This document shows, in pieces, positions 1-11,549 of a stretch of DNA of 11,549 bases (position 1 is its first letter; every line of letters starts with the position of its first letter). Source of the stretch: a bacterium (lineage in GTDB: Bacteria; JAMCPX01); the NCBI GenBank assembly GCA_021792615.1, contig JAJYUJ010000056.1, positions 1 through 11,549 of the forward strand, in the 5' to 3' direction. The notes below the pieces were generated by a model, which worked only from the letters and a program-made list of their open reading frames with translations, did no database searches and was not told the origin of the DNA. The translations under genes and the position numbers were made by a program.

Positions 1-487
1 GATCTTTTGAGCTGCGGGCTTCTTTCGGAGTCAGCTTGGTTTTCAGCAGTCCTTGCAATTCGTCCATAAACTCACTGATGTCTTTGAAGTCGCGGTAGAC
101 CGATGCAAACCGTACATAGGCGACCTTATCAAGCTCTTTAAGCTCAGCCATGATTTCTTCACCGATATCACTTGCCGGTATTTCCTTTTCTGCGGCATCC
201 TCGTACTTTTTTGCTATACGGTCCACGACCTTTTCGATGGTGTCCATGCTGATCGGCCGTTTTTCGCATGCCTTCAGGAGCCCCTGTTTGATCTTTTGAC
301 GGTCGAACAGTTCCCGCCTGTTGTCCTTCTTGATGACCATGGGAATAATGTTTTCCACACGTTCATAGGTCGTAAAACGTGTAGCGCATTTTGGGCATTC
401 CCTGCGCCTTCGTATGGCAAGTCCGTCTTTTGACATGCGCGAGTCTATGACGGATGTATCAATGTATCCGCATTCAGGACATTTCAT
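1..487 (-). CDS. nrdR: NrdR, transcriptional repressor of ribonucleotide reductase genes (3' end cut by window)
   Basis: NrdR is a zinc-ribbon/ATP-cone repressor that senses ATP and dATP and binds NrdR boxes upstream of ribonucleotide reductase genes. The 162 codons visible here begin [19 protein letters not shown]. They show the N-terminal zinc ribbon (C3-x2-C6 and C31-x2-C34), the basic RRRREC stretch at 26-31, and the ATP-cone from about residue 49 ([16 protein letters not shown]) to about 140 ([13 protein letters not shown]). No stop is reached before base 1. Family members are usually about 150-160 residues, so only a short C-terminal tail should be missing. The ATG lies 4 nt after the glyA stop and I see no clear Shine-Dalgarno, so translation is probably coupled to glyA. 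The identification is secure. Confidence 0.95.
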
Positions 488-491
488 ATTT

Positions 492-1736
492 TTAAATCAT
501 CGTGCTGTATATCGGAAAATTGCTGCACAGTTTGATAACCTTCTGTCTTATCTCTGCGAGGGTTGTTTCGTTGTTCATGTTTTTCAGCGCATCGTCGATA
601 TACCCGGCTATCAGAGCCATCTCCTGCTCCTTCATGCCCCTGGTTGTCACTGCCGGTGTACCTATCCGCAGTCCGCTGGTCACTGCAGGGGGCTTTTCGT
701 CGAACGGGATTGCATTTTTGTTGACGGTTATGCCGGCTTTCTCGAGGGTTTTTTCCGCATCCTTGCCGGTCAGGCCCTTAGAGGAAACGTCAACAAGGAA
801 AAGATGGGTATCGGTACCTCCCGATACAATATCGAATCCCCGCTGCTTCATTTCATCGCACAGCCTTGCGGCATTTGCGATGATTTGCTTCTGGTACTGC
901 TTGAAGCCGTCCGACAGCGCTTCTTTGAAAGCTACAGCTTTGGCAGATATAACGTGCATCAGCGGGCCTCCCTGCATGCCCGGAAACACCTGCGATTTGA
1001 TCTGTTTCTCGTACTGTCCCTTGCTCATGACCACACCGCCTCTGGGTCCCCGCAGCGTCTTGTGTGTGGTGGTCGTGACAAAATCAGACCATGGAACAGG
1101 ACTTGGATGCAGACCCGCCGCGATCAGACCTGCAATATGCGCCATATCGACCATAAGGTATGCCCCGCAGGACTTTGCAATCTCTGAAAACCGTTTAAAA
1201 TCGATGGTTCTCGGATATGCCGAGGCACCTGCGATGATCATCTTCGGTTTATGTTCCCGTGCGAGCTTTTCAAGTTCTTCATAATCGATGGTTTTTGTAT
1301 CCTTGCGTACGCCATAGGGTATTACTTTGTAGAATTTACCGGAAAAGTTAACCGGGCTCCCATGGGTAAGATGACCGCCGTGGGCGAGGTTCATACCCAT
1401 AATGGTATCTCCATAATTCAGGAAAGCGAAGTAAACCGCCATGTTTGCCTGAGCTCCGGAATGCGGCTGAACATTCACATAATCCGCGCCAAATAATGCT
1501 TTTGCCCTGTCCATTGCAAGCTGTTCCACGGTATCCATGTTTTCACAGCCGCCATAGTATCTCTTGCCAGGATATCCTTCCGCATACTTGTTCGTCATCA
1601 CACTGCCCATTGCTTCGAGTACAGCCATACTGACGATGTTCTCCGAAGCGATCAATTCGAGCGTGTTCTGCTGCCTCTTTACTTCGGCAACGATTGCATG
1701 ATAAACCTCGCTGTCCGTTTGTTTTAAATTATTCAT
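492..1736 (-). CDS. glyA: GlyA, serine hydroxymethyltransferase (414 aa, from internal start)
   Basis: PLP enzyme that converts serine and tetrahydrofolate to glycine and 5,10-methylene-THF, the main cytosolic source of one-carbon units. Starting at the ATG at 1736 the product is 414 aa, close to the usual length of about 415-420. Visible motifs are LELIASEN (27-33), [16 protein letters not shown] (50-65), QPHSGAQAN (90-98), [13 protein letters not shown] (196-208), the PLP lysine K226 in [14 protein letters not shown], and the C-terminal [18 protein letters not shown]. The start is supported by AAGGAG at 1746-1751, 9 nt upstream. The same frame continues upstream into rpiB without a stop, so this is either the only GlyA product or one of two. 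The stop is TAA at 492-494, and nrdR follows after 4 nt. Confidence 0.93.
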
Positions 1737-2192
1737 GAAAACATTCTCCTTCCCGGTGTTTTCTAAGGCAAAGATTTTTTCTATCCTTTGCCCGTGTCTC
1801 CCGCCTTCGAACGATGTGTTCATCCATATATCTACATACCGCAGCGCAGCACCGGTATCCATGGTTCTGCCGCCGAGCGCGATGACATTGGCATTGTTGT
1901 GCCTGGCTGCCATCTCTGCGGTATACTCGCTGTAAACGAGCGCCGCAATAATACCCTTTTTTTTATTTGCCGAAATGGACATGCCTATGCCCGTACCGCA
2001 TACCAGTATCCCTTTTTCCGCCCCTTTGCTTGTTATGATATCGGCTACCTTTTCAGCATAGTCCGGATAATCCACGGACGTCTCGGAATACGTTCCGAGG
2101 TCGATTGTTTCGATTTTTTTATTCTGTAAAAATTGAATAATTTCTTTTTTTAAATTAAGTCCGGCATGATCGGAAGCAATAGCTATTCTCAT
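492..2192 (-). CDS. rpiB-glyA: RpiB-GlyA in-frame fusion: ribose-5-phosphate isomerase B joined to serine hydroxymethyltransferase
   Basis: One open frame of 566 codons holds two complete enzymes. Residues 1-152 are RpiB (ribose-5-P to ribulose-5-P, pentose phosphate pathway). They start [18 protein letters not shown] and carry the active-site [12 protein letters not shown] (C65) and H98 in ARHNNANV. Residues 153-566 are a full-length GlyA. RpiB normally stops near [10 protein letters not shown], but here the frame runs on through TGKENVF into the GlyA methionine without a stop or a recognisable linker. The start ATG at 2192 overlaps the fabF stop (ATGA) and is preceded by AAAGG. An upstream in-frame start at 2309 lies inside fabF and adds no RpiB-like sequence, so I rejected it. 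Either a true bifunctional protein is made, or the fusion is low-level readthrough beside internally initiated GlyA. A lost stop codon or a sequencing error is the alternative explanation. Confidence 0.8.
1737..1754 (-). promoter_or_regulatory. Internal ribosome binding site for glyA inside the rpiB frame
   Basis: Minus-strand GGGAAGGAGAATGTTTTC precedes the glyA ATG. AAGGAG (1746-1751) is a near-consensus Shine-Dalgarno with 9-nt spacing. It lies in the last RpiB codons, which read on into glyA, so this site decides whether GlyA can be made separately from the fusion. A second, out-of-frame ATG (1744-1742) opens only a three-codon frame that ends at TGA. Confidence 0.75.
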
Positions 2193-3433
2193 TGTGTTAC
2201 CTTTCTGAATAGAAGCACTGCATTCGTTCCCCCAAAACCGAAGGAATTGGACATCCCGGTCGTTATGCTCATCTGAACCGGAACATTCGGGACGTAGTCG
2301 AGGTCGCATTCGGGATCCGGGGTTTCATAGTTGATGGTTGGCGGCAGCACCCCGTGGTGCAGTGCGAGCACCGTAAAAATGGCCTCGATCGCGCCTGCCG
2401 CACCGAGCAGATGCCCGGTCGCTCCCTTGGTAGAACTTATCGCGAGTTTGCAGGCATGCTCCGCAAAGACGGTCTTTATCGCAAGTGTCTCCACCTGGTC
2501 GTTATATTTCGTCGAGGTGCCGTGAGCATTGATATAGTCTACTGCATCGGGTTTGATACCGGCATCCTCTAGGGCCCGTTTCATGCATTGAACCGCTCCC
2601 TTACCTTCCGGAGAAGGGGCTGTTATGTGATAGGCGTCTCCGTTGGCGCCATAACCGGCAACCTCCGCATATATTTTTGCTCCCCTGGCCATGGCATGTT
2701 CGTAGGATTCCAATATGAGTATGCCGGCGCCTTCTCCCATAACAAATCCGTCCCTGTTGAGATCAAACGGCCTTGATGCATGCCGCGGGTCGTCGTTGCG
2801 TGAAGAAAGTGCTTTCATATTGGCAAACCCTGCAACTGCGAGCGGGGTTATGGTCGATTCGGCTCCACCCGCTATGATGATATCCGCCAGCCCGTTTTGA
2901 ATATACCGGTATGCCTCACCGATTGAATGTGCTCCGGATGCGCACGCCGTCGTTATACAGAGGTTCGGCCCGGTTGCACCGAACTTTATTGCGACATAAC
3001 CCGATGCCATATTTCCTATAGTCATCGGGATAAAGAACGGCGATATTTTTCTGCCGCCTCCCTTGAGGAGCGCTGCATGGTAGAATTCTATGCTCTCAAG
3101 TCCTCCCATACCACTGCCGATGATAACGCCCATCCGTTCCTTATTGACAGGCTGGCCGGACAGGCCGCTGTCGTTGTAAGCCATGATAGCGGATGCCACT
3201 GCATACTGTATGAACAGTGACATCTTTTTTACGTCTCTTTTTTCTATAAAGGCTTCAGGAACAAAGCCTTTTACTTCGCCTGCTATCTGTACTTCATACT
3301 GGTCAGGGGCAAAACGGGTTATACGATCGATACCGGTTTCTCCCTTCAACAGGGCGGACCATGTTCCCGCCACATCGTTGGTGAGCGGATTGACCGTACC
3401 CAGCCCTGTTATGACGACCCTTTTTTTAGTCAT
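2189..3433 (-). CDS. fabF: FabF, 3-oxoacyl-[ACP] synthase II
   Basis: Elongating ketoacyl-ACP synthase that condenses malonyl-ACP with acyl-ACP by decarboxylative Claisen condensation in cytosolic type II fatty-acid synthesis. The 414-aa length is normal for KAS II. The Cys-His-His triad is complete: C164 ([10 protein letters not shown]), H304 ([12 protein letters not shown]) and H341 ([14 protein letters not shown]). The glycine-rich C terminus [12 protein letters not shown] is also present. The start ATG overlaps the end of acpP by 8 nt (ATGACTAA), with AGGGTG just upstream as ribosome binding site. Its own stop overlaps the rpiB start (ATGA), so translation is likely coupled on both sides. 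With no fabH nearby, initiation of chain synthesis must rely on a gene elsewhere. The call is secure. Confidence 0.97.
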
Positions 3434-7465: not shown

Positions 7466-8335
7466 TTACGCTATATTCTCTACCCTGAGTTTCAGCTTCG
7501 TGTTGCCGATGGTCAGGATATCTCCGTGTTTTATTTTCGTGGTAGTGATGCGTTGTCCATTGATATACGTCCCATTGGTGCTTGCAAGGTCCCGTATGAA
7601 GTATGTGTCCCTCGACCAGGTCTCGATAACAGCGTGTTTTTTGGAAATGTTCTGGTCGTCTATGATAAGATCGCCGTCCGTTCGTCCTATGACGACCCTT
7701 CCTCCGATAAACTCATAGGTAACACCTTTCTGTACCCCCTCTATAATATCGAGATAGATCCGTTGTTTGTACGGCAATTTGAATTCAACATCGTCGGGTC
7801 TCTGGATACGCGTTGTCCCTTCTGCGGACACTTCGTCCTTAAGGAGAATGGTCCCGGTCGATCCTTCCTGAAGGGTATCCGGTGTTTCAAATATGGTAAC
7901 GAGCAGCCTTGTATTTCCTATGGAAATCTCGTCCAGATGTTTCAACTCCTCTTCTTTTATCTGTTTGGTGCCGATAAATGTTCCGTTGGTGCTGTCGAGG
8001 TCCTTCAAAACGATCCTTCGGTCATGAAGTTGTATGAGCGCGTGTCTCCTCGATGCCTGAACGTCATTCAATGCCATATCCGCATTTTCACGGCCTATGG
8101 TAAAATCGGGTTTATCAATCTGAACGGTTTTACCCATGTCCTTGCCTTCGAGCACTGTTAAAGAAACCCTTAATCCTTTGGGCATTTGCTGCGGTGCATT
8201 GTTGATACCCATCAGGGTGTTGCCGGACAGCGATTCCGACAATATGGTACGCTTGCAGGAGGGACATGTAATACCCTGCTTATCAAAATTATCTATATCA
8301 AAACTGTTACCGCAATAAGGACACTTTATCTGCAT
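7466..8335 (-). CDS. Zinc-ribbon protein with two FHA domains
   Basis: FHA domains bind phosphothreonine peptides, so this is probably the reader partner of the kinase encoded just upstream. In the 289-aa product, residues 5-27 form a zinc ribbon (CPYC...CPSC: C5, C8, C24, C27). FHA1 spans about 54-150, with IGR (R82), S95-R-R-H98 and DSTNGT around 114-119. FHA2 spans about 194-286, with IGR (R218), S231-K-K-H234 and STNGTY around 252-257. The linker holds TGTILL and EGTTRI, threonines with a hydrophobic residue at +3. No membrane segment is visible. GTG (8344) and ATG (8341) are possible earlier starts; I chose the ATG at 8335 because GAGGTG sits 6 nt before it and the protein then opens directly with the zinc ribbon. 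It lies 5 nt after the kinase stop. Confidence 0.88.
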   Translation of the reverse strand: MQIKCPYCGNSFDIDNFDKQGITCPSCKRTILSESLSGNTLMGINNAPQQMPKGLRVSLTVLEGKDMGKTVQIDKPDFTIGRENADMALNDVQASRRHALIQLHDRRIVLKDLDSTNGTFIGTKQIKEEELKHLDEISIGNTRLLVTIFETPDTLQEGSTGTILLKDEVSAEGTTRIQRPDDVEFKLPYKQRIYLDIIEGVQKGVTYEFIGGRVVIGRTDGDLIIDDQNISKKHAVIETWSRDTYFIRDLASTNGTYINGQRITTTKIKHGDILTIGNTKLKLRVENIA

Positions 8336-8340
8336 AAACA

Positions 8341-9306
8341 TCACCTCTTTTGTTTCTTATTAAAGACATGCCTTCTCAAATCGGTCGTTGCTTCGTCAAT
8401 AATCGTATCGACATGAGAAATTTCCGAAAGGATATTCCGTTTTCCCGGGGAGATATCCTTTACCGAATTCTCGGACCTTTCCCGTGGCCTTGTATGTGCC
8501 CGTATGAGTGATTCAACCACCTCACCCGCCTTCTTATACCGTTCTTCTGGTTTCTTGGAAAGTGTTTTTAATAAGACCCCGTCTACATGGTGCGTTAAAG
8601 CTGGATTATAGAAACTCGGGGGCTTTGGTTCTTCGTTCAATATCCTATAGGTCACGGCATGCGGTGTAGCTCCATAAAACGGCTTCTCCCCCGCTATGAG
8701 ATAGTATAGCATCACGCCCAGTGAGAAGATGTCCGTGGCGGAAGTGATCGTGCCGCCGAGTATTTGCTCCGGGGACATATAGGAAGGCGAGCCTATGATG
8801 CCCGAATCCTGTGTGGAGGATGTATCCAGTATTCTTGCAATACCGAAATCCGCTATCTTCGGGATGTATTCTCTTGTGATCAATATGTTGTCGGGTTTTA
8901 TGTCTCTGTGCACAATACCCATGGAATGGGCATAATCGATACCGCTGGCAACACCCTGCACAATGGGATAGAGTTCTTCCATGCTTAATTTCCCCTTTTT
9001 CTTCCTTAATGACTCCAATGACTCGCCCTCGACATATTCCATGACGACGAAGGGGAGCACATCCTCGTCTAAATCATATATAGTGACTATGTTCTGGTGA
9101 TTCAATCTTCCCGCGGACCGAACCTCGGTTAGCATTCTTTTGGTTAATTCTTCCCTTTTGGCAGCATCGAGAGAATTGGCTATATCTATTGTTTTCAGTG
9201 CAATATTCCTGTTAATAACGGGATCGTGGGCAAGATAAACAACTCCCATTGCTCCCCTGCCGATTTCTTTTTCTATTTCATATCTTGAGATTTTTTTTAG
9301 CGTCAT
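8341..9306 (-). CDS. Hanks-type serine/threonine protein kinase, soluble
   Basis: Bacterial eukaryotic-like protein kinase, 321 aa. The catalytic domain spans about 8-270 with every key element: glycine loop IGRGAMGVVY (15-24), K38 in IALK, alpha-C glutamate E61, HRDIKPDN (D135, N140), DFG (D153), the P+1/SPE region GSPSYMSPE (172-180), D192 in TDIFSLG, and R256. It should therefore be active. The activation loop has several Ser/Thr (162-173) for autophosphorylation. The roughly 50-residue tail is charged and has no hydrophobic segment and no PASTA or other sensor domain, so the kinase appears cytosolic. It ends with EATTDLRRHVF, a possible phosphothreonine site for the adjacent FHA protein. 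The start at 9306 has AAGGT 7 nt upstream. Substrates cannot be read from sequence. Confidence 0.93.
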   Translation of the reverse strand: MTLKKISRYEIEKEIGRGAMGVVYLAHDPVINRNIALKTIDIANSLDAAKREELTKRMLTEVRSAGRLNHQNIVTIYDLDEDVLPFVVMEYVEGESLESLRKKKGKLSMEELYPIVQGVASGIDYAHSMGIVHRDIKPDNILITREYIPKIADFGIARILDTSSTQDSGIIGSPSYMSPEQILGGTITSATDIFSLGVMLYYLIAGEKPFYGATPHAVTYRILNEEPKPPSFYNPALTHHVDGVLLKTLSKKPEERYKKAGEVVESLIRAHTRPRERSENSVKDISPGKRNILSEISHVDTIIDEATTDLRRHVFNKKQKR

Positions 9307-10602: not shown

Positions 10603-11549
10603 CTACTTCAAAGCAGGCGGCGGCTGCGTAATTGCCACACTCAGGTTGGCAGCAGAATCATAGGGATTGAGCATATCCCGTGTCAAAAATAAACTTGTAT
10701 TCCCATGGCAGTTTGCGCAGGCCATTTGCGGAGTTGTATGCTGGATGTTATGCGGTGATGTCGTTTGCCACGTAGGTACAAGATCAAAACCGTTCAGCAT
10801 GTTTATCCCGAAGTAATCGAACGTATCCCTTGTTATGGGATAATGACGTACCGTTGTATAGAGGTACGGCTGTGATGGTATCGTATTGAATCCGATTCTG
10901 AAATCCGTCACGGTTATTCCTGCGGCACCGACATACTGATTGCCGACGAACATACTGGTATAATTGTAGGTATTCTCATACGGCTGTGCATGGCACGCCG
11001 TACAATTCAAGGATTTCATTTGGGGTATGTTGTGTTCAGCGATACCGGAAGTTCCGTTGGTAACATCGGTATGGCACAAACCACACTGCGGCATCTCCTG
11101 AACGTTCCACATGGTCGTGTAGGTTATGCCGTCCCCGTGGATGCCGTTCCCATGACAATCAATACATTGCATACCGTTAGGATATCCTGGGAGGGGCAAA
11201 GAATGAAGATCCGGAGCCTGGCCCGTTAACCCCAGAAACTCATTTGCCTGATCTTTGTGACACTGGAGACAGGTTTGCTGCATCGGAGGTACGGGCATAA
11301 AGGTATGGCCCGAGATAAGCCCGCCACTCAGAGGTTTGGCAACATGGCAGTTTCCGCATGATGCGTGGCACCGCTGGCAGTCTGTCTTATCGGGAGTATT
11401 CAGATTGTTGTTGTACGGACAGGAAACCTTGTTCAGATAGGATTGTTCTCCTGCAAGGGTGTAGTGGAGGCTTGTCGTGTAACTCTGGACAATACCTGCA
11501 TGACAGTTCGCGCAGACCGTGTTCGGGTTCAACGAAGGGTCCACGACCA
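10603..11549 (-). CDS. Multihaem c-type cytochrome with eight CXXCH sites (5' end cut by window)
   Basis: Electron-transfer protein expected outside the cytoplasm, since c-type haem is attached after export. The reading frame is open to the window edge, so the signal peptide and any further haem sites are missing. Numbered from the GTG codon at 11544, 313 residues are visible with eight CXXCH motifs at 11, 56, 63, 92, 127, 154, 181 and 276. Two are only two residues apart (CQRCHASCGNCH). Exactly eight other histidines are present (27, 80, 114, 136, 171, 234, 265, 269), enough for bis-histidine ligation of all eight haems. A stretch of about 90 residues (186-275) rich in Tyr and Thr lacks haem. 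I cannot place it in a named cytochrome family. It could serve metal, sulfur or nitrogen respiration, or extracellular electron transfer. Confidence 0.9.
   Translation of the reverse strand, partial: VVDPSLNPNTVCANCHAGIVQSYTTSLHYTLAGEQSYLNKVSCPYNNNLNTPDKTDCQRCHASCGNCHVAKPLSGGLISGHTFMPVPPMQQTCLQCHKDQANEFLGLTGQAPDLHSLPLPGYPNGMQCIDCHGNGIHGDGITYTTMWNVQEMPQCGLCHTDVTNGTSGIAEHNIPQMKSLNCTACHAQPYENTYNYTSMFVGNQYVGAAGITVTDFRIGFNTIPSQPYLYTTVRHYPITRDTFDYFGINMLNGFDLVPTWQTTSPHNIQHTTPQMACANCHGNTSLFLTRDMLNPYDSAANLSVAITQPPPALK

Follow-up and report, generated by a model that had tools for sequence, protein, structure and literature searches.

The 11,549-nucleotide stretch of bacterial DNA analysed here (contig JAJYUJ010000056.1, hereafter the window) carries a gene in which ribose-5-phosphate isomerase B (RpiB) and serine hydroxymethyltransferase (SHMT, GlyA) are joined in one open reading frame. 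Sequence comparison indicates that the fusion is real and conserved, that it probably gives rise to two products, a 566-amino-acid RpiB-GlyA protein and a free GlyA of 414 amino acids, and that it is one case of a recurring fusion of operon genes which was foreshadowed in the literature. The features are listed in Table 1.

Table 1. Position of the rpiB::glyA fusion gene, its parts and its immediate neighbours in the window.
Feature	Position	Strand	Basis or remark
nrdR-like gene, directly downstream	2..487	minus	ORF list; cut by window end
rpiB::glyA fusion gene	492..2192	minus	open frame, two Pfam domains, common to G002, G003 and G004
SHMT (GlyA) part, residues 153-566, with stop codon	492..1736	minus	PF00464, NF000586, 3pgy alignment
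In-frame ATG inside the fusion (residue 153), presumed to start free GlyA	1734..1736	minus	kept in four genomes; aligned with G006 GlyA start
Linker codons, residues 147-152 (GKENVF)	1737..1754	minus	junction comparison; block 141-150 pLDDT 65
Internal Shine-Dalgarno AAGGAG, 9 nt before GlyA ATG	1746..1751	minus	identical in four genus genomes and G006
RpiB part, residues 1-146	1755..2192	minus	PF02502, TIGR01120, 3he8 alignment
fabF-like gene, directly upstream	2189..3433	minus	ORF list and sequence; stop overlaps rpiB start (ATGA)

The fusion gene was read as a single frame of 566 codons plus a stop, running from an ATG at 2192-2190 to the stop codon at 494-492 with no internal stop. Residues 3-140 matched LacAB_rpiB (PF02502, 185.5 bits, model positions 1-138 of 138) and residues 156-532 matched SHMT (PF00464, 573.9 bits, model positions 1-399 of 399), both far above the Pfam cut-off; in NCBIfam, the RpiB part matched TIGR01120 (173.4 bits, cut-off 138.65) and the GlyA part NF000586 (658 bits, cut-off 335). 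Length-wide alignments to solved enzymes found the catalytic motifs of both parts intact: 144 residues of the RpiB part were aligned with 3he8 with zero gaps and the SDH, CGTG and HN motifs were kept, while the 14-residue PLP-binding lysine motif of the GlyA part was identical to that of 3pgy. By its full-length family match the RpiB part is assigned to ribose-5-phosphate isomerase B, with isomerase activity predicted. A preliminary description of this DNA, made from the letters alone, had placed RpiB and GlyA in one stop-free frame; this was borne out by the frame reading and by both domain databases, and the junction it quoted, with AAGGAG standing 9 nt ahead of an in-frame ATG, was exactly as written. 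Its remark that there is almost no linker was right as to length (about 6-10 residues), but in the AlphaFold2 model (mean pLDDT 91, alignment of fused and separate relatives) both domains were predicted confidently and the joint between them less so, which is what a flexible connection would give: residues 141-150 averaged a pLDDT of 65, with the last RpiB helix ending at residue 146 and the first SHMT helix starting at 151.

The gene lies in a compact operon with the order fabF-rpiB-glyA-nrdR, the nrdR-like gene starting 4 nt past the fusion stop. Promoter-like and terminator-like sites were no more frequent near the junction than expected by chance. In the window genome (G000, 99.55% complete) there was no match to a second glyA or rpiB, nor to the RpiA family, which was matched in eight control genomes; both enzyme activities should therefore come from the fusion gene. 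Elsewhere in the window, a Ser/Thr protein kinase-like gene overlaps a twin-FHA-like gene (7466-9306, minus strand) and the pair adjoins a fatty-acid run, plsX-fabD-fabG-fabF (all named by eye from the sequence), and an ORF resembling a multihaem cytochrome and rich in CxxCH motifs (10603-11547, minus strand) is open at the window end.

Comparison within the window phylum covered nine genomes, all of one family, five of them in the window genus. Relatives carrying the fusion were found: the whole open frame is present in G000, G003 and G002, and G004 has the open junction on a contig which ends inside glyA, after residue 408 (amino acid identity to the window fusion 99% for G003, 91% for G002 and 90% for G004). 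No match was obtained in the fifth member of the genus, G001, whose assembly is 80% complete. In G006, of a sister genus in the same family, a TAA stands at the codon homologous to V151 of the window gene (GTT, 1740-1742), the spacing and the AAGGAG being as in the window gene, and in two further members of the family (G005 and G007) rpiB and glyA are in different frames. The suggestion that a stop was lost between operon neighbours is thus upheld by G006. On these sequences the join spans the genus, and the simplest history would be that the stop codon underwent a base change in the genus ancestor; the single gain is an assumption, because branching inside the family is poorly resolved, and the grouping of G004 with the other genus members in the SHMT tree is not firm. 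The loss had also been called recent, which is only partly right, since genomes sharing the fusion differ at 15-26% of nucleotides. For most of these genomes the assembly is a draft, and a sequencing or assembly artefact might have deleted a true stop codon. Such an artefact is extremely improbable: the open junction recurs in four separately assembled genomes, in which unlike codons (GTT, ACT or TTT) have taken the place of the stop, and a shared error is excluded by the low DNA identity among the three diverged lineages G000, G002 and G004 (rpiB 74-79%, glyA 81-85%). Assembly error was accordingly rejected as the source of the fusion, given that relatives share the stop-free junction.

Whether one product or two is made turns on the internal start. 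The same three lineages have identical codons at 106 of 337 positions encoding the same residue, and amino acid identity is lower in the linker (60-70%) than in RpiB (82-83%) or GlyA (95-97%), yet the AAG GAG AAT codons and the ATG are invariant; from the invariance rates of those codon types, the chance of the AAG GAG AAT invariance is about 0.03 (7/26 x 9/21 x 5/17), a rough estimate from three lineages. The internal site was predicted to pair with the anti-Shine-Dalgarno sequence at -8.8 kcal/mol, none of ten other gene starts in the window being stronger than -6.9 kcal/mol, and the local fold around the ATG is weak. A Shine-Dalgarno match alone proves little, since in-frame ATGs at residues 412 and 389 of the G000 protein have equal or stronger scores, with more stable local folds. 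It is the combination of invariant codons and ATG, a strong site and a weak fold which favours internal initiation, and the strong GlyA start noted in the preliminary description was found to be kept in all four genus genomes. The 566-amino-acid protein could instead be the sole product, the internal Shine-Dalgarno and ATG being leftovers conserved by chance. Five fusions of other lineages (L121, L127, L139, L142 and L147) lack any plausible internal start and have to function as one chain, and AAGGAG, which encodes Lys-Glu, may have been kept for protein reasons; against this, the start signals are invariant while most codons vary and linker residues drift, and the site is strong and little structured, which makes a single product unlikely. 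Nor is keeping the internal start automatic, as several fusions elsewhere have lost theirs. At the other extreme, internal initiation could supply nearly all SHMT, the joined chain being minor or processed, for example by a cut in the linker that releases both enzymes. The internal site is indeed stronger than the Shine-Dalgarno of the rpiB start (-3.9 kcal/mol), but a ribosome that has translated RpiB cannot avoid going on into GlyA, and no other ribose-5-phosphate isomerase was found, so that this arrangement appears improbable.

The favoured reading, an ancestral stop loss that created the fusion and a maintained internal start that also yields free GlyA, is given a probability of roughly two in three. 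In the genus ancestor, the rpiB stop codon of the tightly packed operon would have mutated to a sense codon without an indel, and ribosomes ending RpiB would have run on into GlyA to give the two-enzyme protein. The ribosome-binding site and ATG of the original glyA would have stayed inside the frame and been maintained, allowing initiation of free GlyA. Both products are presumed to be made and active, and mixed assembly with free GlyA may ease the strain of joining two oligomeric enzymes.

The fusion was also sought outside the window phylum. Among 290 sampled genomes, stop-free matches across both domains came from six genomes belonging to five families, among them that of the window. Junction reading confirmed the fusions L117, L121, L127, L128 and L133, and further fusions were found in G136 and G304, in G250, G305 and G306, and in G049 and G309; stop-free RpiB-SHMT genes occur in five families besides the window's. 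In the phylum of G100 all six genomes with a complete locus carried the fusion, the locus of a seventh being cut by a contig end. Eight fusions were tested against Pfam, and in each both domains were confirmed with no third at the threshold used. Single-segment tblastn matches at L025-L036 (Pelotomaculum, Acidobacteria, Alphaproteobacteria and others) had stops between the genes, and in G009 and G040, for which a single long open frame had been listed, the genes were found to be separate; these were rejected as fusions. The two genes stand as separate neighbours in many phyla, but a join between them is in principle nothing exceptional: it recurs in five other families, and one such join has been published within a three-domain protein.

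In the SHMT tree the fused genes required 8 label changes, at least 6 of them forced by well-supported branches. Several independent gains are therefore likely, although some label changes could be losses; the tree puts the fused genes in separate lineages. The other fusions (phylum of G100, families f129 and f195, G049 and G309) resemble the window gene in having RpiB followed by SHMT, stop-free and of similar length, but differ in their linkers, and several have no usable internal start; the existence of such fusions indicates that evolution tolerates a tie between SHMT and RpiB. L117 retains AAGGAG before an in-frame GTG, and its junction has the look of a young fusion; its order-mates G181 and G297, which are order-mates of G049 and G309 too, still have stops between the genes. 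At L146 (G307, family f195) rpiB and glyA do not share a single frame while its close relatives L128, L143 and L144 are fused, possibly through a secondary split or an assembly frameshift. The separate operon neighbours of many phyla have the same gene order as the window, with fabF before them in G006, G007 and G040, but are divided by a stop codon or a frame change.

A literature search found one paper with an rpiB-glyA fusion, the genome paper of Methylacidiphilum infernorum, in which Minf_1669 was described in 2008 as a single protein combining a low-molecular-weight phosphatase domain with those of RpiB and SHMT (PMC2474590); nothing specific was found on fusion together with internal initiation. 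Minf_1669 shares with the window gene the union of RpiB and SHMT in one chain and differs in its extra phosphatase domain, the window gene having two domains and a kept internal start. No low-molecular-weight phosphatase domain was detected in the window gene with Pfam, and its upstream neighbour is fabF-like. Upstream of the fusions L127, L133 and L138 (phylum of G100) lies a low-molecular-weight protein tyrosine phosphatase-like ORF, recognised solely by the motif CTGNxCRSPLAEG; together with the fusion it comprises the same three domains that form one protein in M. infernorum.

The gene downstream of the window fusion resembles nrdR, a regulator of ribonucleotide reductase. Purine precursors come from both enzymes: ribose-5-phosphate from RpiB, glycine and one-carbon units from SHMT. 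The two enzymes share no intermediate, so direct channelling is unlikely; if there is a benefit, it more likely lies in fixed stoichiometry or co-regulation, and a tolerated stop loss may also have been fixed neutrally. It is a tentative and rather doubtful proposal that rpiB and glyA have been repeatedly fused as a link between ribose-5-phosphate, glycine and one-carbon supply, with the window genus caught mid-way, making both forms, and free GlyA aiding co-assembly. The 290-genome sample gives no rate of rpiB-glyA fusion relative to other neighbour pairs. The genes compared form a natural series in which operon neighbours turn into one protein, from separate genes with a stop, through a stop-free frame keeping the old start, to fusions without an internal start, and the repeated appearance of the fusion suggests a possible advantage in coupling the supply of pentose phosphate to that of one-carbon units.
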